64,000 nucleotides of DNA from Streptomyces altiplanensis (GTDB lineage Bacteria > Actinomycetota > Actinomycetes > Streptomycetales > Streptomycetaceae): contig RHMC01000020.1 of NCBI GenBank assembly GCA_003719395.1, positions 1 to 64,000 on the forward strand, written 5' to 3'. Shown one piece after another: positions 3,111 to 41,644 of this stretch. Made by a program: the position numbers and the translations under genes. A model generated the notes under the pieces. The model did not search any database and was not told where the DNA came from. It was given only the letters and a program-made list of their open reading frames with translations. How positions within the stretch are numbered: position 1 is the stretch's first letter; the number at the start of each line of letters is the position of its first letter.

Positions 3111-3443
3111 TCAACGAGCCTGTGTGGGCGCGAAAGCTGAGATCGAGCGGGTACGGGCAAAGAGAACCGGAGGGGCACCGGGGACTTGACGCAGAGCACG
3201 ATGCCGATACCTGGGCCTTGCCCAGAAGAGCACCAGGCTGCCAGCAGCCTCCCATTCCAGCCCTACGCACGTAACTGCCGGTCCGTCGAAGAGATTCGGG
3301 TCGGTCCGGACCGCCTCGTCCCAGAGGAGATTCATGGCCGGCCGCTCTTCGGCCGACAGCCGGGGCCCGGCACCTTCGACGAAGCGGATCCGCTGGACCT
3401 CGAAGACCTCCACGGCGGACGGCGGCAGCTGCGCTTCGGTCAC
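3111..3443 (-). pseudogene. NUDIX-type hydrolase remnant (N-terminal part)
   Basis: A GTG at 3443 opens 110 residues containing L-W-D-E-A-V-R-T-D-P, F-D-G-P-A-V and Y-R-H-R-A-L-R-Q-V-P-G-A. These are segments I recognise from the N-terminal half of Streptomyces NUDIX-type proteins. The GX5EX7REUXEEXGU nucleotidase box is absent, because the frame ends soon after the V-P-G-A segment. The gene therefore appears truncated and inactive. The identification rests on remembered family sequence, not on the catalytic motif. Confidence 0.45.
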
Positions 3444-9715: not shown

Positions 9716-10653
9716 TCACCATGCGGTGATGACCGGTGCGCCGGGTTCGTACTGTCGCCAGGCCTCGTTGAGGCGCGCGAGCCGGTCCGCGGCGGCGATG
9801 CCGCGCAGGGACGCGACCTTGCCGTCGCTGACGTCGAACGCCACGCGCCCACGACCCGGTCGTCGACCACGGCGAGGACGGCCGGGGCGCCGTTGACCAG
9901 CGCGTAGTGGAGGGCGGGCGAGCCGCCGGCCAGCCGCCGCTTCGCCGGCGTGGGCTTGAAGCCGGCCCGCACGTAGGAGGCGATGCGCTCGCGCGTCTGG
10001 TACCGCAGCAGCCGCCTGGCCAGTCCGGCGCCGTCCGAGATCGCGGTCGCGTCGTCGGTGAGCAGCGCCACCAGCCGTTCGGTGCGCCCCGACGCGGCGG
10101 CGGCGAGGAACTCCTCGACGACCCGGCGCGCGGACGCGGGATCGGCCTCGCCGCCGCGGCGGCGCTCGGCGGCGACCCGGATCCGGGCCCGGTGGACATG
10201 CTGCTGGCTCGCGGACTCGGTGATGTCGAGGATCCCGGCGATCTCGGAGTGGCTGTACGAGAAGGCCTCACGCAGGACGTAGACGGCCCGCTCGACCGGC
10301 GAGAGGCGCTCCATGAGGGTCAGTACGGCCAAGGACACCGATTCGCGCTGCTCGAAGGTGTCGGCAGGGCCGAGCATCGGGTCGCCCTCGAGGAGTGGCT
10401 CGGGCAGCCAGTCCCCGGCAGCTCGCTCGTGGCGCGCCTGCGCCGAGCGCAGCCGGTCGAGGCAGAGATGGGTGACGACCTTGGTCAGCCACGCTTCCGG
10501 CACCTCGACCCGTTCTCGGTCTGCGGCCTGCCAGCGCAGGAACGTGTCCTGCACGGCGTCCTCGGCGTCGGCCGCCGAGCCGAGAAGACGGTACGCGAGT
10601 GAGGCCAGTCGGCCCCGGCCGGCCTCGAACCGATCAATGGCTGCACTGTCCAT
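9716..10653 (-). CDS. ECF sigma factor with SnoaL-like tail, SigJ/ECF41-like (frameshifted)
   Basis: The order is region 2 (Y-R-L-L-G-S-A-A-D-A-E-D-A-V-Q), the linker motif W-L-P-E-P-L, region 4 (E-R-A-V-Y-V-L-R-E-A-F and a helix-turn-helix) and a C-terminal SnoaL-like domain. The tail motif is D-G-A-G rather than the usual D-G-G-G-K. A missing base near 9846 is bridged by the other frame, giving V-A-F-D-V-S-D-G-K-V and a stop at 9716. ECF41 factors carry this tail in place of a classical anti-sigma factor. It starts 10 bp after a truncated partner gene, so its own promoter may be gone. Confidence 0.85.
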
Positions 10654-10663
10654 GCGGAACAGC

Positions 10664-10984
10664 CTATGCGGCGGCCCCCGCACCGGCCCGGTCAGGCGCG
10701 GTGGCCAGGCGGCGCTTGCGCTTCGGCATGCCGAAGGCCGGGTGGGCGATGCCCCACCCGGCCCCCTTGAGCATGCCCGGCTTGAGCCGCGCGGCGGTCC
10801 GGCCGCCCGGGTACCAGGACTTCGGCCGGACGTCCCCGTCCACCATCTGGAAGACCGCGTCCCGACGCCCGGGGCTGATGTGGTTGCCGTGGTACTTCAG
10901 CCCGGTGGCCGGGACCTCGCCGCCCGTCAGGCGCGCGATGATCGCGGCGGTCGCCTGCAGGGTGGTGAAACCGGCCGAGGCCAT
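10664..10984 (-). pseudogene. C-terminal fragment of a sigma-linked protein, possibly SDR-type oxidoreductase
   Basis: About 105 residues with strong codon bias include T-G-L-K-Y-H-G-N-H-I-S-P-G, W-Y-P-G-G-R-T-A-A-R and W-G-I-A-H-P-A-F-G, and end 10 bp before the ECF sigma start. The frame has no credible N-terminus: it stops making sense exactly where an unrelated plus-strand gene begins (10983). The position beside an ECF41-like factor fits an oxidoreductase partner, but no catalytic motif remains to prove it. Confidence 0.45.
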
Positions 10985-30660: not shown

Positions 30661-31527
30661 CTACCTGGCGAGTTCGGCCAGTTCGTCGAGCCGTGTCAGC
30701 TTCTGCGGATTTCTCATCAGGTAGATCCGGGTGACCCGCCCGTTCTCCACTACAAGGCTCAGTGCGGTCGGCTCGCCGTCGATCTCGAACCGGCCCGCAG
30801 GCGCGCCGTTGAGCCACACGGTCGCCGTCTCGAACGAGGCCGCCACCCGGTTCGCGCGCGCGAGCACCGTCGCCACCAGTTCGGCCCCGTGGAGCGGAGC
30901 CAGAGCGGCTGCAGCAAGCCCGCCGCCATCGGCGATCAGGACCACGTCCGGCGCCATGACCTCCAGCAGCTCCTGCAACCGCCCGGTTCGCAACGCGGCC
31001 AGGAACCGCTCCATCACGGCCCGCTGCTCCGTCCGGCTCACTTGCACCCGCGGCCGCCGAGCCGCCACATGCTCGCGTGCCCGTCGCGCGATCTGCCGCA
31101 CTGTGGCCGCGGACTTCCCGACGGCCTCGGCGATCTCGCCGTACGGCATCTCGAACACCTCGCGGAGCACGAACACCGCCCGCTCGGTGGGCCCGAGCGT
31201 TTCGAGGACGGTCAGCATCGCGATCGAGACGCTCTCCGCGAGCTCGACGTCCTCGGCAACATCAGGGCTGGTCAGCAGCGGCTCCGGCAGCCACTCGCCG
31301 ACGTACTCCTCGCGGCTGCGCGACAACGTGCGCAGGCGGTTGAGCGCTTGCCGTGTGACGACCCGGACGAGGTACGCCCGCGGGTCGCTCACTTGCGACT
31401 GGTCGACGTCGGCCCACCGCAGCCAGGAATCCTGCAGCACGTCCTCCGCGTCGGCCGCCGACCCGAGCATCTCGTAGGCGACCGTGAACAGAAGGCTGCG
31501 ATGGGCGACGAACGGGTCCTCGGTCAT
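30661..31527 (-). CDS. ECF41-type sigma factor with SnoaL-like tail
   Basis: Intact, 288 residues. Region 2 carries Y-E-M-L-G-S-A-A-D-A-E-D-V-L-Q, the linker W-L-P-E-P-L is present, region 4 has E-R-A-V-F-V-L-R-E-V-F, and the tail contains A-D-G-G-G and N-P-Q-K-L near the end. These are the hallmarks of ECF41 factors, in which the SnoaL-like tail controls activity. The start overlaps the stop of the upstream decarboxylase-like gene as ATGA, so both are one operon. A promoter of the ECF41 type lies upstream of that operon, suggesting autoregulation. Confidence 0.93.
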   Translation of the reverse strand: MTEDPFVAHRSLLFTVAYEMLGSAADAEDVLQDSWLRWADVDQSQVSDPRAYLVRVVTRQALNRLRTLSRSREEYVGEWLPEPLLTSPDVAEDVELAESVSIAMLTVLETLGPTERAVFVLREVFEMPYGEIAEAVGKSAATVRQIARRAREHVAARRPRVQVSRTEQRAVMERFLAALRTGRLQELLEVMAPDVVLIADGGGLAAAALAPLHGAELVATVLARANRVAASFETATVWLNGAPAGRFEIDGEPTALSLVVENGRVTRIYLMRNPQKLTRLDELAELAR

Positions 31528-32102
31528 GCCGTCGACGCTGCCCGGGACGTCTCAGGGCGTGTGGCCAGTGGGATCTCGCAGGCATCGGAGAAACCCTGCG
31601 ACGTGATCCCGTTCGCATTGTTGTTCCTGGTCGCCATGTTGACGAAGGCGATGTACGCGGTGAGCTCGACCATCGCCGCCGGGCCGAGCCGGTCGAGCAG
31701 GCTCGCGTACAGCTCGTCGGTGACGGTCGGCGGCGTGTTCGTCATGGCCTCGGCGTACTCCATCGCGTCCCGCTCCAGCGGGGTGAACACCTCCGACTCC
31801 CGCCAGCGCGGCACCTGGCTCGCCTTGGCCAGGTCCAGGTTCTCGTTCTGCGCCTGGAAGTAGCCGACGTCGAGGCACCAGCTGCAGCCGACCTGCGCCG
31901 CGACGGCCATGTGCGCGAACGACTTGAGGCTCGCGTCGGCCACATCCCATTCAGCCAGCTTGGCCGAAAACTCCAGGCTGGACGTGGCGACCTTGGGGCT
32001 GTGCCACACCACCTCGACGGGCTCGGGCACGGCACCGAGCTGCTTGATCATGTTTTCCCTCATCGCGGCGGGGAGCTCCGCCTTCGGAATGCGCGGTGTC
32101 AT
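31524..32102 (-). CDS. Carboxymuconolactone decarboxylase/AhpD-like protein
   Basis: The 192-residue product has the AhpD-like core: H-M-A-V-A-A-Q-V-G-C-S-W-C-L-D-V-G with the CxxC redox pair, then a long helix ending in A-F-V-N-M-A-T-R-N-N-N. The ATG at 32102 has AAGGAG upstream. Members next to ECF41 sigma factors are regular targets of that factor and probably act in peroxide or aldehyde detoxification. It is translationally coupled to the sigma gene. Confidence 0.9.
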   Translation of the reverse strand: MTPRIPKAELPAAMRENMIKQLGAVPEPVEVVWHSPKVATSSLEFSAKLAEWDVADASLKSFAHMAVAAQVGCSWCLDVGYFQAQNENLDLAKASQVPRWRESEVFTPLERDAMEYAEAMTNTPPTVTDELYASLLDRLGPAAMVELTAYIAFVNMATRNNNANGITSQGFSDACEIPLATRPETSRAASTA

Positions 32103-32145
32103 GGTGTCTCCTTGTCCAGTGGCCTGTCGGCCTGTTTGACATGAA

Positions 32146-32172
32146 GACACCGCCGGACCCACGAATGTGACA
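32146..32172 (-). promoter_or_regulatory. ECF41-type promoter
   Basis: On the minus strand TGTCACA (32166-32172) is followed after exactly 16 bases by TGTC (32146-32149), about 45 bases before the decarboxylase start. The ECF41 consensus as I recall it is TGTCACA-N16-CGTC, so one base differs. Confidence 0.7.
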
Positions 32173-36555: not shown

Positions 36556-36712
36556 CCGGGCCGAAGTGCGCATTCGTCTTCACCGGCCGGTTACTGGCCA
36601 CGCTCGCGCATCTGCGGACCGGCCTTGCCCACGAGGTCCTCGGGGTGCTCTACGAGGTGGGGTCCTCCACGATCGGCCGGGCCGTCGCCGGGATCCGCCC
36701 GCGGTCGATGAG
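36556..36712 (+). pseudogene. Transposase N-terminal helix-turn-helix remnant
   Basis: The frame gives F-V-F-T-G-R-L-L-A-T-L-A-H-L-R-T-G-L and V-G-S-S-T-I-G-R-A-V, matching the N-terminal DNA-binding part of IS5-group (DDE_Tnp_4-like) transposases. It stops where the EamA gene body begins, so the element probably inserted at, or recombined with, the end of that gene. Confidence 0.65.
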
Positions 36713-37634
36713 TCGTCCGAGTCGGCGTGGTGAGCACGGTGAGGCAGCCGACGACCAAGGCGATGCCGGCCCACCCCGGAAGGGGCAGACGTTCACCGAC
36801 GACAAGTACGGCCAGTACGGCCGCGACAGCGGGTTCCAGCAGGGAGAGGGTGGTCGCGGTGCTCGCCGGAACGTGCGCCAAGCCCCAGCCGAACAGGACG
36901 TAGCCGACGAACATGGGCACCAGAGCCATGTAGATGCCGACGGCCGCATTGGACCAGGAGGAAAGGAGCGGGGCGCCGGTGGCCAGCAGCACCGGCATCA
37001 GCAGCAGCCCGCCCAGCCCGAAGACGGTTCCCATGGCCGCGCCGGAGGTGACACCGCGGCTGATCAGGCGATGGGCCGCCCATGAGTACAGGGCGTAGGT
37101 CAGCCCGGCCACAAGGCCCAGTCCCACGCCGAGCACGGTCTCCCCCGCGGAGTGGGCCCCGGGGCCGGAGTGCGCGCCGGCGGCTTCGCCGTGCACAGCA
37201 GCACTGTCCCGGACAGCCCCAGGGCAGCGCCGGTCATCCAGCGGCGCGTGAGGCGGCGCCCGTCGGCGACGCGCTCGATCAGGGCCGAGGCGAGCGGGGC
37301 CGATCCGATCGACACCACGGTGCCGGCGGCGACCCCGGCCAGGTGCATGGAGGTGTAGAACGCCAGGGGGTAGGTCCCGACCGCGATCGCGCCGAGCGGC
37401 ACCACCCCCTTGTGCGCACGCAGTCGAGGTCCTTCCCGGCGGATGCGGGGGGCGGCGACGAGGGCCTGGAGCAGTCCGCCCAGGCCCATGGCGGACGGCC
37501 CCGAGCGCGAGCGGCCCCACCGCGGGGGCGAACGTCGCGGCGGTGCCCGTGGTGCCCCACAGCACCGACGCCATCAGCACGCACACCGCCCCCACGCCGA
37601 CCGAGCCGGCCGCGTGTCCGGCGGACCGCGTCAC
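36591..37634 (-). CDS. EamA/DMT-family exporter (two frameshifts)
   Basis: The product has about ten hydrophobic segments in two EamA halves: A-S-V-L-W-G-T-T-G-T-A at the start and L-V-P-M-F-V-G-Y-V-L-F-G-W-G-L and S-L-L-E-P-A-V-A-A-V-L-A in the second half. Frame changes near 37490 and 37190 are bridged by the middle frame (Y-P-L-A-F-Y-T-S-M-H-L-A-G-V). The GTG start overlaps the TetR stop, so the two are an operon. The last 40 residues after T-V-L-T-T-P are foreign and overlap a transposase remnant, so the true end is lost or replaced. Confidence 0.75.
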   Translation of the reverse strand: MTRSAGHAAGSVGVGAVCVLMASVLWGTTGTAATFAPAVGPLALGAVRHGPGRTAPGPRRRPPHPPGRTSTACAQGGGAARRDRGRDLPPGVLHLHAPGRGRRRHRGVDRIGPARLGPDRARRRRAPPHAPLDDRRCPGAVRDSAAVHGEAAGAHSGPGAHSAGETVLGVGLGLVAGLTYALYSWAAHRLISRGVTSGAAMGTVFGLGGLLLMPVLLATGAPLLSSWSNAAVGIYMALVPMFVGYVLFGWGLAHVPASTATTLSLLEPAVAAVLAVLVVGERLPLPGWAGIALVVGCLTVLTTPTRTTHRPRADPGDGPADRGGPHLVEHPEDLVGKAGPQMRERGQ

Positions 37635-38238
37635 AGCCGGTCCAGCAGGTCGGCCGCCATCGCCCGGGCATGCTCCAGACGCGTACCCGAACCCTCCAGT
37701 CCGGCCCGTGCCATCGCGCCTTCCAGCAGGAACGACAGGTGCTCCGCCACCGCGCGCGCTTCCTCGGGCGCCCGGGCAGCAGCTCCTCGAGATGCCCTGC
37801 GAGCAGATCCTCGACCTCCTCCTTGTGCCGGCGCACCACGGCCCGGCCCTCGTCCCCTGCGGGCAGTTCGGCGGCCGCGTTCAGCAGCCCACAGCCCCGG
37901 AAGCCGTGCTCGTAGGCGAAGGCCGCGTGGTCGGCGTACGCGCCGAAGACGGCCAGCACGCCGCCGCGACCGTCCCGGGCCTCCTCCAGCCGGCGCCGGT
38001 ACAGGCCCAGCCACTCCTCATGCCGTGCGTCGAGGTAGGCCATCACCAGATCGGCCTTGGAGGAGAAGTTGTTGTACAGGCTCATCTTCGCCACGCCCGC
38101 CTCAGCGGTGATCGTGTCGATCCCCGTCGCCGCCACGCCGTCCGCGTAGAAGCGGCACGCCGCAGCGGCGAGCAGCCGCTCGCGCTCGGCCCCCCGCCGC
38201 CTGCCGGGGCGCGCCACCGCCGTTCCGGTCTCGCTCAT
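37631..38238 (-). CDS. TetR-family regulator (frameshifted)
   Basis: The N-terminal HTH reads G-I-D-T-I-T-A-E-A-G-V-A-K-M-S-L-Y-N-N-F-S-S-K, followed by a ligand domain with R-G-C-G-L-L-N-A-A-A-E-L. Near 37772 the frame changes and the other frame supplies A-V-A-E-H-L-S-F-L-L-E-G-A-M-A-R-A and a stop at 37631. It overlaps the EamA exporter start by four bases, so it most likely represses that exporter. A dyad lies 20 bases upstream. Confidence 0.85.
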
Positions 38239-38257
38239 CGCACTCCCTCTCCGTTAC

Positions 38258-38277
38258 TAGGTAGGTCAGTCTACCCA
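38258..38277 (-). promoter_or_regulatory. Putative TetR operator
   Basis: TAGGTAGGTC-AGTCTACCCA is a 20-bp imperfect palindrome with 7 of 10 matching positions per half-site and a perfect GGTAG/CTACC core. It is located 20-39 bases upstream of the TetR start. Confidence 0.6.
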
Positions 38278-38682
38278 ATAGCGGAGAGGGTCCCCATTCC
38301 GGCCTGAAGCGAAGGCGGGCGGTGAAGGGGCGTGCAGCGGCGCTCGAACCAGGAGGTGCTCAGGGAGCGCCGGTCCTCGGGAGGGGCGCCGCAGAAGCCG
38401 GGTGGGGGCCGCGTCGAGCACGTAGAGCATCGAAGCTCCGTACCTCACGCGTGATCCGACGTCGTGCGGCAGCGCCGTGGGGCGAGGACAGCGGCATTCC
38501 GGAGGCGGCCGCCCGGAAGAACAGGATCACGGTCCGCAGGACGGCCGCGGCCTTGCGGAACGTGCCGCCTCACCGCTGGGCCGTCGTAGGTCCGCCCGTG
38601 GAAGTGGCCCTTTCGTCTGCCGTGTGCGGTGGTCACGTGGTGCGCCTGACGCTGTGGCGCTCGACTGGATGTGCGCCGGTCG
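38278..38682. other. Intergenic, no gene seen
   Basis: About 400 bases. No frame with recognisable protein features. Confidence 0.4.
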
Positions 38683-39066
38683 TCAGCCGGTGAAGGACTC
38701 GGGGCCGAAACGGCCCCACGCGACGAAGAGGGCCAGGACGAGGTAGATCAGGTCGCCGGCGATCGTGGCCTTCTCCCCACGGCGCAGACGCATGGTGAGC
38801 GCGCAGGCGAACAGCACAGCGAGTCCGGTGGCGGCCAGCGGCACCAGGACCGGCGCGACGTCGAGCACCGCGGGCAGAATCAGACCGGCCGCAGCCAGCA
38901 GCTCGACGGCGCCGATGGCCTTGAGGGTGCCGGGGCTGAAGTCCAGGACCCACTGCGCGGAGGAGCCCATCGCGGCCATCTTCTCCGGCGGCACGAACAT
39001 CTTGGCACTGCCCACCAGGCAGACAGCGGCCAGTACTCCGGTGGTGATCCACAGCGCGACGTTCAT
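38683..39066 (-). CDS. DoxX-like membrane protein
   Basis: Intact, 127 residues with four membrane segments. The motif L-K-A-I-G-A-V-E-L-L-A-A-A-G-L-I-L-P in the second segment is typical of DoxX-like proteins. The ATG has GGGAG six bases upstream. It diverges from a carboxymuconolactone-decarboxylase-like gene, and its own upstream region carries a perfect ECF41-type promoter, making it a probable target of the sigma factor at 39890. It may take part in redox or thiol metabolism at the membrane. Confidence 0.88.
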   Translation of the reverse strand: MNVALWITTGVLAAVCLVGSAKMFVPPEKMAAMGSSAQWVLDFSPGTLKAIGAVELLAAAGLILPAVLDVAPVLVPLAATGLAVLFACALTMRLRRGEKATIAGDLIYLVLALFVAWGRFGPESFTG

Positions 39067-39100
39067 CGTCAACTCCCTGATCGAGGACTTCCGTACCCGG

Positions 39101-39127
39101 GACGAGGCGGCGGCTCGGCCTGTGACA
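39101..39127 (-). promoter_or_regulatory. ECF41-type promoter of the DoxX-like gene
   Basis: On the minus strand TGTCACA (39121-39127), 16 bases, then CGTC (39101-39104). This is an exact match to the ECF41 consensus as I recall it, 35 bases before the start codon. Confidence 0.8.
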
Positions 39128-39171
39128 TCCCCGCACCCGGACAGCGGAGAGACGCAGGTCACGCCACGCCG

Positions 39172-39198
39172 TGTCACAGGCGTGAGGGCCGTCTCGTC
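39172..39198 (+). promoter_or_regulatory. ECF41-type promoter of the decarboxylase-sigma operon
   Basis: TGTCACA (39172-39178), 16 bases, then CGTC (39195-39198): again an exact match, 39 bases before the decarboxylase-like start. It forms a divergent pair with the promoter at 39101-39127. Confidence 0.8.
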
Positions 39199-39237
39199 TC
39201 GGGGGTGAAGGCATCGACGAACGTGGAGGAGCACACG

Positions 39238-39712
39238 ATGGACGCGCGACTGAACTACCTCGCCGGCCCGACCGCCGGCAAGACCCTCAAGTACTTCATG
39301 GGGGCCGGCCGGGAGCTGAAGGAGTCGCCGCTGCCGGCCGCGACGCAGGAGCTGGTGGCGCTGCGGGTGAGCCAGATCAACGCGGTGTGCGGTCTGCATC
39401 GACATGCACACCAAGGAAGCCGTCGCTGCCGGCGAGAGTCCGGTGCGGCTGAACCTGATCGCGGCGTGGCGGGAGGCCACGGTCTTCACCGAGGCCGAGC
39501 GGGCCGCGCTGGAGCTGGCGGAGCAGGGGACCCGGGTCGCGGACGCGGCCACCGGGGTCAGCGACGAGGTGTGGGCGCGAGCCACCGAGCACTACGACGA
39601 GGAGCAGCTCACCGCCCTCGTACTGCTGGTCTCGTTCATGAACGCGGTGAACCGGCTGAACATCATCGCCCAGCAGCCGGCCGGCGACTACCAGGCCGGC
39701 CAGTTCCACTGA
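39238..39712 (+). CDS. Carboxymuconolactone decarboxylase/AhpD-like protein (frameshifted)
   Basis: The corrected product is about 158 residues. It starts at an ATG with GGAGGA upstream and contains L-V-A-L-R-V-S-Q-I-N, then the redox pair C-A-V-C-I-D-M-H-T-K once a missing C near 39394 is restored. The end has F-M-N-A-V-N-R-L-N. It is followed by the ECF41 sigma gene and preceded by a matching promoter, the standard ECF41 arrangement. A role in reducing peroxides or reactive carbonyls is likely but not shown. Confidence 0.87.
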
Positions 39713-39889
39713 ACCGCCGCCACGCCTTGCCCCCGGGGCAGGCACGGTGTCCCGGGCACGGTGGTCACGAGGTGGGAGCACGGTCGCGGTGCGAGCGTCG
39801 TCCGCCCCGCTCACCCATCGGATGATCTTCGAAGGATGCCTGGCCGGCCCGGGACCGGCCACACACAGAGACCCCAAGGAGGAGACGGC

Positions 39890-40814
39890 ATGGGCAAGGT
39901 CGAGGAGTTCGAGGAGCTGCGGCCGCTGCTGTTCTCGATCGCGTACCGGATCCTGGGCAGCGTGGGGGAGGCGGAGGACGCGGTGCAGGAGACCTGGCTC
40001 CGCTACGACGCCTCGACCACCCGGCCCGTGTCGGCCAAGGCGTTCCTGTCGGCCACGGTCACCCGGATCGCGATCGACGTGCTGCGCTCCGCCCGGGTGC
40101 GGCGGGAGGAGTACGTCGGACCGTGGTTGCCCGAGCCACTGCTGGACGATCCGTATGAGGACCCGGCCCGCGCGGCGGAGCTGGCCGAATCGGTGTCGAT
40201 GGCGGCGCTGCTGCTCCTGGAGCGGCTCAGCCCGCTGGAGCGGTCGGTGTTCGTGCTGCGGGATGTGTTCGCCTTCGGCTTCGACGAGATCGCCGCCGCG
40301 GTGGGGCGCTCGGAGGCGGCGTGCCGGCAGCTGCTCGTACGGGCGCGCCGCCACATGCACGAGGGACGCCCCCGGTTCGAGGCGGACCGCCGGGAGCGGC
40401 AGGAGCTGGCGCGGCGGTTCTTCGAGGCACTGGCGGAGGGTGACGTGGAGGGGCTGCAGAGCCCAGCTGTCCGCCGACGTCCAGCTCGTCGGGGACGGCG
40501 GCGGCAAGGCCCCGCAGCTGGCCAGGGCCGTCTCCGGTGCCGAGAACGTGGCCCGGCTGCTCGCCACCGTCTACCCGCTGATGGCCCGGGCCGACATCAG
40601 GTTCGAACCGCACGAAGTCAACGGCCAGCCGGGCGCGCTCTTCCGCGACCGCGACGGCAAGGTCCTCCACATCCTCGCCCTCGACGTACTCGACGGGCAG
40701 ATCCAGACCATCCGCTCGGTCATCAACCCCGACAAGCTCGGCCACCTCGGCACGGTCGCCGATGCCTGGGCCGTCGACCAGGAGGTGAAGCAGGTCCGCA
40801 AGCGGACGCAGTGA
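39890..40814 (+). CDS. ECF41-type sigma factor (frameshifted)
   Basis: Region 2 has Y-R-I-L-G-S-V-G-E-A-E-D-A-V-Q, the linker W-L-P-E-P-L is present, region 4 carries E-R-S-V-F-V-L-R-D-V-F, and the SnoaL-like tail keeps G-D-G-G-G-K and N-P-D-K-L, the two conserved ECF41 tail motifs. A frame change near 40462 separates sigma and tail. The ATG has AAGGAGG upstream. It belongs with the decarboxylase-like gene 177 bases upstream and probably drives both divergent promoters between 39101 and 39198. Confidence 0.9.
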
Positions 40815-41101
40815 CCTCCCCGACGGCCCGGTGGGGCAGGGCCGGACGTTTCAGAGCGGTTGCGGGCCGGCACCGACCACATGCCGGCGCTGGCCTGCGC
40901 CCTCGTGTCGCCACGGCACCAGGTCAACGACAAGCAGAACCTGAGGGATGACACAGGAGCTGACCCCGATTTCGAACGCACAGGTTCACCGGGGCGGGTG
41001 GCCAAGGCCGTGAAGACGAGCGATCGGCCTCCCCGTCAATTGCCTTGCCTGCTACGGACCTTGGCGTGTTCGCGACGTCGGCACGGCGCTAGAGTGAGAC
41101 G

Positions 41102-41644
41102 GTGACCTCCCTGCCGGAAGACCCACCGTCGCTGATCAGCGAAGACGACCGCGACACGGCCGTGCAGCGCCTGCGGGAGGCGTACGCCGAAGGGCACATC
41201 TCACACGAGGAGTTGGACGAAGGCCTCGGCCAGGTCCTCACCGCCAGGACACGCAGCGAGCTCCTGTCGCCTCTGGCCTCGTTACCGGAGAAGAATGCTG
41301 GCACCACGTCCACGATTGCCGCCGCCGGCGGACGGATCCGGCGGCGCGGCGCATGGCGGGTACCTCGGATCCTCAAGGTCGAGTCCGCATTCGGAAGAGT
41401 GCACCTCGATCTGTCCCGGGCCGTCATCGAGCATCCAGTGGTCGACATCGAGTTGCAACTCGGCACCGGCAGGGCCAGGATCACGGTGCCTCGCGACGCG
41501 ATCGTCGACACCGAGGGCCTGCACACCGGGTGGAAGGACACGCTCTACAAGGCCCGGCGGAGCTCCCGCCCCGGCGGGCCGAGAATCCGGATCTCCGGGG
41601 CCATGGGGCTCGGACGGTTGAAGATCCGCCACGCGTGGCGTTGA
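41102..41644 (+). CDS. DUF1707 protein with LiaF-like C-terminus
   Basis: The 180-residue protein opens with I-S-E-D-D-R-D-T-A-V-Q-R-L-R-E-A-Y-A-E-G-H, the DUF1707 helix pair (L-R-x-A-x-x-E-G-x-I/L). After a basic linker comes a beta-rich part (A-F-G-R-V-H-L-D-L, I-S-G-A-M-G-L-G) like the DUF2154/LiaF C-terminal domain linked to cell-wall stress sensing. No membrane segment is seen. The GTG at 41102 has no ribosome site but TAGAGT six bases before it, so the mRNA is probably leaderless. It is a single gene. Confidence 0.88.
   Translation: MTSLPEDPPSLISEDDRDTAVQRLREAYAEGHISHEELDEGLGQVLTARTRSELLSPLASLPEKNAGTTSTIAAAGGRIRRRGAWRVPRILKVESAFGRVHLDLSRAVIEHPVVDIELQLGTGRARITVPRDAIVDTEGLHTGWKDTLYKARRSSRPGGPRIRISGAMGLGRLKIRHAWR

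Follow-up and report, generated by a model that had tools for sequence, protein, structure and literature searches.

The window, a stretch of 64,000 nucleotides from Streptomyces altiplanensis (contig RHMC01000020.1), contains two divergent genes separated by an intergenic region of 171 bp. On the minus strand lies a gene for a small membrane protein of 127 amino acids (38683-39066), which belongs to the DoxX_2 family (PF13564, E 7.6e-19; 68.2 bits with a gathering score of 26.3). It is the sole match to the DoxX profile in this genome at E <= 0.001. On the plus strand lies a gene resembling carboxymuconolactone decarboxylase (CMD) and AhpD (39238-39712), directly followed by a sigma factor gene with a SnoaL-like C-terminal extension (39890-40814), apparently of the ECF41 type. 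An open reading frame with a DUF1707/LiaF-like C-terminal domain (41102-41644, plus strand) neighbors the sigma gene downstream. Start codons read from the sequence are ATG at 39066 (minus strand), 39238 and 39890 (both plus strand), which confirms the position of the sigma gene given in an earlier sequence-only reading of this DNA.

The promoter pair and the genes it flanks

Two exact matches to TGTCACA-N16-CGTC lie between the DoxX and CMD genes, one on each strand, as the sequence-only reading had claimed. The DoxX promoter, TGTCACAGGCCGAGCCGCCGCCTCGTC, occupies 39101-39127 on the minus strand (-35 TGTCACA at 39121-39127, -10 CGTC at 39101-39104). The CMD promoter, TGTCACAGGCGTGAGGGCCGTCTCGTC, occupies 39172-39198 on the plus strand (-35 TGTCACA at 39172-39178, -10 CGTC at 39195-39198). 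The -35 boxes are the inner elements of the pair, with 44 bp between them. Each -10 box ends short of its ATG, by 39 nt on the CMD side, as previously given, and by 34 nt on the DoxX side, where 35 had been given. The motif is, as the sequence-only reading had it, the published ECF41 consensus TGTCACA-n16-CGTC, backed by 5'-RACE and reporters in B. licheniformis and R. sphaeroides (PMC3426412). The B. licheniformis promoter itself has TGTT as its -10 (PMC3426412). The two tested ECF41 promoters have leaders of 22/23 bases in the text and 31/32 in Table 5 of that paper, and leaders of 34 and 39 nt, with transcription assumed to start a few bases past the -10, agree with them (PMC3426412).

Dinucleotide shuffles with spacers of 14-18 pooled predict 0.22 motif matches per window, and two or more matches occurred in 2 of 100 shuffled windows. 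The genome scan proposed in the sequence-only reading was carried out with the exact N16 pattern on the draft assembly (7,922,561 bases, 458 contigs) and returned four matches; the reversed pattern, used as a control, returned one. Besides the pair in the window, one match (L004) precedes a different CMD gene, which diverges from a further ECF41-like gene, and one (L001) has no CMD or ECF41-like gene nearby. No sigma-70-like promoter and no intrinsic terminator was found in 38600-41000, where shuffles predict 0.1 and 0.3, respectively, and such absences say little. No Rfam match at gathering score was found in 38000-41500. Other promoter types and structured RNA were rejected as explanations on these grounds. 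The absence of a terminator-like hairpin fits co-transcription of the CMD and sigma genes, as weak evidence.

The sigma gene is read in two pieces, broken at about 40456-40461, with 97% and 92% identity to an intact orthologue (L024). A piece in the window carries both Sigma70_r2 (E 2.5e-12) and Sigma70_r4_2 (E 3.8e-13), the sigma2 and sigma4 regions. The C-terminal piece is out of frame and, searched alone, has no Pfam match; it is the piece with 92% identity to L024, in which the extension is present. The intact protein matches Sigma70_r2, Sigma70_r4_2 and SnoaL_2 (SnoaL_2 E 1.2e-6), and it scores above the NCBIfam cut-offs for TIGR02957 (SigX4, 369.5 bits) and NF007214 (SigJ, 330.8 bits). 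WLPEP in the sigma2-sigma4 linker, DGGGK and NPDKL are all present in the window's own frames. We take the latter two to be conserved motifs of the ECF41 extension. Among 55 homologues, D[GS]GG[KR] occurs in 32 and NP[DEA]KL in 42. ECF41 proteins, about 400 in 10 phyla and without a known signal, are marked by WLPEP in the linker and by an extension of about 100 amino acids with three conserved motifs (PMC3426412). The CMD gene directly upstream provides the COE neighbor. An anti-sigma gene is not expected beside an ECF41 gene; the immediate neighbors here are CMD upstream and the DUF1707/LiaF-like reading frame downstream. By the features tested, the gene at 39890 appears to encode an ECF41-type sigma factor, and the earlier assignment holds.

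The CMD gene is likewise split into two pieces in two frames (locus L005), the break at about 39385-39404 falling in the CxxC region. Its 3' piece matches PF02627 at E 6.9e-7; an orthologue (L012) matches PF02627 at E 2.5e-20 and the ahpD core domain at 1.7e-19. CxxC is present in 36/37 homologous CMD loci (the window excluded, some contigs counted twice), and the window's frame is broken at this very spot. Frames were checked in 27 loci with the same gene order, namely 7 other DoxX loci with the exact pair and 20 GTDB loci, some contigs being in both. The sigma factor and its tail share one frame in 27/27, and CMD is one full-length piece in 26/27. The exception (L030) has a weak, partial CMD match with both promoters exact, and its CMD copy may be decaying. 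The TetR-like regulator gene (37279-38238, minus strand) and the transporter-like gene (36591-37634, minus strand) that adjoin the region also look frame-broken by eye, suggesting indel errors in the assembly. Assembly error is probably a better explanation than pseudogenes for the frameshifts in the CMD and sigma genes.

Conservation of the promoters and of DoxX as a probable target

The exact divergent pair, with a gap of 30-60 bp, was found in 10/295 Streptomyces genomes, that of S. altiplanensis included, and the reversed control in 0/295. DoxX and CMD flank the pair in 8 of the 10 genomes, and the DoxX protein is 76-91% identical to its 7 orthologues. In the other two, CMD is divergent from an ECF41-like gene, an arrangement already present in Table 4 of PMC3426412. 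The exact-pair, GTDB and Streptomyces profile sets overlap (L006=L021, L009=L034, L007=L033), and their counts are not summed.

Window-type loci were aligned in 26 rows, with a subset of 22 rows lacking L026, L027, L039 and L042; L002 and L003, which represent the same place as L005, were dropped from the alignment and from the dyad and promoter counts. The sequence CTCGTC at the DoxX -10 (39101-39106) is invariant in all 26 rows, and the DoxX -35 has a mean agreement with the window of 0.98. For the CMD promoter, agreement over 26 rows is 0.92 at both the -35 and the -10; over the 22-row subset it is 0.99 at the -35 and 1.00 at the -10. Taken together, the promoter boxes range from 0.92 to 1.00 in 26 rows and from 0.97 to 1.00 in the subset, whose rows all have the CMD side. 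Agreement in the spacers averages 0.74-0.77, with 0.74 in that of the DoxX promoter. The leaders, from -10 to ATG, are also well conserved (0.79-0.86), so part of the conservation of this region is not specific to promoters.

Relatives of DoxX were collected by a search with 8 aligned DoxX proteins, and the best 80 of 172 confirmed matches were kept (53-89% identity). These 80 actinobacterial loci from GTDB are the nearest to the window's DoxX and hence biased towards it. In 43/80 loci the motif, with at most one mismatch, lies on the DoxX strand no more than 150 bp upstream of the gene, and in 24 of them it is exact; about 0.2 would be expected, and the reversed control occurs at 0/80. The rest of these loci (978,246 strand-bases) holds 17 motif and 23 control matches, the motif rate being 0.0026 per 150 bp. 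The number becomes 49/80 when CMD-DoxX orders are scored at the gene that comes first and the TGTGACA variant of the -35 is excluded; none of the 43 loci of the first count depends on TGTGACA alone. The 49 motif-bearing loci span 18 named genera and 12 families, with 28 of them in Streptomyces. Several DoxX promoters outside the window's group have GGTGTC- or GGCATC-like -10 boxes, so the exact pattern misses them.

An ECF41-like sigma gene lies in the flank taken at 55/80 loci. The W[LFI]PEP linker is present in 43 of these and absent in 12, which indicates that not every sigma gene near a DoxX relative is an ECF41 factor. The motif precedes DoxX or CMD-DoxX at 36/43 loci beside a W[LFI]PEP sigma gene and at 1/12 beside a sigma gene without it (raw Fisher p 2.7e-6, a value affected by common descent, since related species have both traits in common). 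A tree-based test of the motif against ECF41 adjacency found 4 independent pairs on supported branches (median p 1) and was uninformative. At 12 of the 25 DoxX loci without a sigma gene in the flank taken the motif is present, so control in trans is also possible.

Gene order varies among the 80 loci. The window's arrangement, in which DoxX diverges from CMD and a sigma gene, occurs in 20. An ECF41-like sigma gene divergent from DoxX with no CMD detected occurs in 24; 16 of these have W[LFI]PEP, and 11 of the 16 have the motif. CMD-DoxX divergent from sigma and a sigma gene on the same strand account for 5 each, CMD and sigma in another order for 1, and CMD alone for 1; neither CMD nor sigma was found in 24. 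At six Nocardia loci (L046, L047, L049, L056, L057, L063) DoxX diverges from a sigma gene that is ECF-like but has no WLPEP, and the ECF41 motif is absent. DoxX may partner another sigma group there too.

Profile searches at E <= 1e-30 found DoxX relatives in 41/199 Streptomyces genomes. Besides that of S. altiplanensis, 45 places were listed and 29 examined as loci, some repeated from the other sets. The motif lies within 750 bp upstream of DoxX, either directly or before a preceding CMD, at 15/29. At one locus (L268) DoxX precedes ECF41 where the COE gene would otherwise stand, and another (L273) has the row DoxX, an NAD-binding-like gene (best Pfam match below cut-off) and ECF41. A third (L278) has DoxX, a Pyr_redox_2 oxidoreductase gene and then a weak partial sigma match. 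The motif precedes the row in all three. The claim of the sequence-only reading that DoxX joins the ECF41 regulon thus appears well supported by footprinting and by several DoxX-ECF41 gene arrangements.

A sample of 78 genomes was scanned to cover the whole class. The exact motif gave 138 matches and the reversed control 38; 134 sites in 130 loci were examined, the four G000 sites being left out. A sigma, SnoaL or CMD domain lies within about 1.5 kb of 50/134 sites. The genes behind the sites include known COE types, for example epimerases, which indicates that the class-wide scan finds true targets. DoxX was downstream of 0/134 exact sites in this sample outside G000, which argues against a general rule. 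DoxX looks like a recurrent but minority ECF41 target beyond the published COE genes. Two further divergent exact pairs were seen. In L190 (20-2401) a Pyr_redox_2 oxidoreductase gene lies opposite an NAD-binding/epimerase-like gene, the latter on the side of the sigma gene, and in L188 (731-1492) an NAD-binding-like gene resembling that of L190 lies on one side.

A dyad-like element between the promoters

A dyad-like element, GAGAC-GCAG-GTCAC (39149-39162), sits in the gap between the promoters; 9 nt separate it from the CMD -35 downstream. It is an imperfect copy of a consensus of about GTGAC-N4-GTCAC. The element was examined in a non-redundant set of 22 CMD promoters, with no more than 65% identity over the 80 upstream bases; weak CMD matches were excluded from the counts, as were sites having less than 80 bases of upstream sequence. 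Besides the promoter boxes, these promoters show information content from about -23 to -7 relative to the CMD -35, with A at -20 in 14, C at -19 in 18, T at -13 in 14, A at -11 in 13 and A at -9 in 13 of the 22. GNG-N6-GTCAC occurs within 40 bp upstream in 11/22 non-redundant promoters and in 26/43 with redundancy; the rate in base shuffles is 0.0024, a comparison uncorrected for shared descent. Better palindromes are found elsewhere, GTGAC-N4-GTCAC in L236 and GTGGC-N4-GTCAC in L008 and L245. The dyad averages 0.78-0.81 agreement in the alignment and the stretches flanking it 0.53-0.68.

On the DoxX side, the dyad is kept at one locus where no CMD was found (L042) and absent at another (L026). 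The central element was also considered as a third ECF41 promoter, since TGTGACA-N17-CGTC can be read towards DoxX. That reading counts the CMD -35, taken on the opposite strand, as part of the promoter, and the dyad was preferred. In Streptomyces flaveus (L018, about 3350-3420) the segment of dyad and -35 looks tandemly duplicated. CRP/FNR- and Rex-type operators are palindromes of the form GTGA-N6-TCAC, and the form of the dyad presumably resembles CRP- or Rex-type operators. We regard the dyad as a putative second regulatory input.

Proposed control of the DoxX and CMD genes by ECF41

The simplest reading is that the factor at 39890 would drive both genes. We assign a probability of about 80% to the region being a divergent ECF41 control region in which this sigma factor drives the DoxX promoter and the promoter of the CMD and sigma genes. 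The motifs, the degree to which they are conserved, the gene families and the recurrent gene orders are observed; recognition by this factor, co-transcription, autoregulation, the signal and the physiological role are what we infer. RNA polymerase with the ECF41 sigma factor would recognize both consensus promoters and transcribe outwards. One transcript would give the DoxX_2 membrane protein and the other the CxxC-type AhpD/CMD protein; read-through across the 177-bp gap would give the sigma factor itself and positive autoregulation. The SnoaL-like tail is expected to gate activity on a small-molecule signal. Together, the products of DoxX and CMD may contribute to redox defence at the membrane, of the thiol or the quinone/electrophile kind.

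It is unlikely that both promoters, while real and of the ECF41 type, are driven mainly by one or more paralogues, possibly with overlapping specificity, and not by the gene at 39890. The genome has at least five further ECF41-like genes that could recognize both sites, at C413, C434 and C359 and two in the contig of the window (matches at 30673-31512 and 9979-10638), with partial matches at C439 and C188. The ECF41/CMD locus at C359 carries an exact copy of the consensus, and retention of the motif at DoxX loci lacking a flanking sigma gene (12/25) would also fit a distant factor. Against this, CMD adjoins the sigma gene at 39890, and the CMD-ECF41 order is kept in the orthologues together with the promoter pair. 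Moreover, a second complete CMD-ECF41 pair in the window (30661-32172, minus strand) consists of a CMD gene (PF02627, GCSWCLD) and then an ECF41-like gene with WLPEP (30661-31527, minus strand). This paralogue has its own CMD behind a variant promoter, TGTCACATTCGTGGGTCCGGCGGTGTC (32146-32172, minus strand), whose -10 differs (GGTGTC). Yet another ECF41-like sigma gene with WLPEP, the third in the window, lies at 9979-10683 on the minus strand; its match ends early in frame, perhaps because of a frameshift. All three fall within 31 kb.

We think it very improbable that only the CMD promoter functions, the match in front of DoxX having arisen as a side effect of selection acting on the intergenic region that both genes share. 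The published ECF41 regulons have one target transcript each (PMC3426412, PMC6180224), as this explanation would have it, and the motif is missing from 7/43 DoxX loci that have a W[LFI]PEP sigma gene nearby. However, the DoxX promoter is exact at two loci with a divergent ECF41 where no CMD was found in between (L026, L042) and at one where neither was found in the flank (L027). It is also exact before DoxX genes located in front of ECF41 (L268, L273), and CTCGTC on the DoxX side does not vary. Chance matches in GC-rich DNA, which would suit the 38 reversed-pattern matches against 138 in the class sample and the 84/134 sites there without an ECF41, SnoaL or CMD domain within 1.5 kb, can be dismissed given the rarity of the motif in the genome, its enrichment upstream of DoxX, its fixed distance from start codons conserved in many species and the exact pairs (10 versus 0), conservation being in our view the strongest argument.

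Control of both genes by the factor at 39890 agrees with the ECF41/COE system of Wecke et al. 2012 (PMC3426412), which has the same WLPEP linker, C-terminal extension, consensus and adjacent CMD, probably of the CxxC type in the window too, and in which the COE gene comes first and has the motif upstream, the ECF gene behind it having none of its own. The window differs by DoxX, a predicted second target that diverges from the first and has the same consensus. In the available text of that paper, the sole detectable targets named are COE genes and the sigma gene (PMC3426412). A COE transcript as the only target would not describe this locus, where a conserved second promoter is predicted in silico at DoxX. 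Motif-bearing hypothetical genes appear in Fig. 2 and Table S1 of PMC3426412, and DoxX genes could be among them. In Sinorhizobium meliloti, RpoE9/SMb20029 is likewise an ECF41 factor with CMD-ECF order and a mapped start behind the motif; it differs in having a single target, and DoxX has 0 occurrences in the paper (PMC6180224). No paper joining ECF41 with DoxX, DoxX with SnoaL and a sigma factor, or DoxX with extracytoplasmic function and Actinobacteria was found in the literature searched. The addition of DoxX to the ECF41 regulon would be modestly new.

DoxX-like membrane proteins also occur under the oxidative-damage ECF sigma factors RpoE2 of Haemophilus influenzae and SigE of Neisseria (PMC7907618). 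Those factors, unlike what is expected of an ECF41 factor, are controlled by an anti-sigma factor, and their DoxX genes adjoin genes of the DUF2063/UPF0276 type, whereas the window's DoxX adjoins CMD (PMC7907618). A link between DoxX and a thiol oxidoreductase is known from the mycobacterial membrane complex of DoxX, SseA and superoxide dismutase (Nambi et al. 2015, cited in PMC7907618). The presence of DoxX under other ECF factors and in such a complex makes a redox role plausible (PMC7907618). Unlike that of the mycobacterial complex, the thiol-chemistry link of the window's DoxX comes from gene neighborhood only. We know of no link between the mycobacterial complex and ECF41 or CMD.

Tentatively, DoxX_2 might form a fourth recurrent class of ECF41 effector in Actinobacteria, beside C, O and E, acting with CMD as a membrane thiol/quinone module, with the dyad as the site of a second regulator of both promoters; we regard this as a possibility on the doubtful side. 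The intergenic region is a ready-made two-color reporter, and the dyad offers a testable second regulator. The recurrence of DoxX under an ECF41 promoter in several arrangements would provide a second handle on ECF41 function, one suggestive of a membrane role in redox or electrophile defence.
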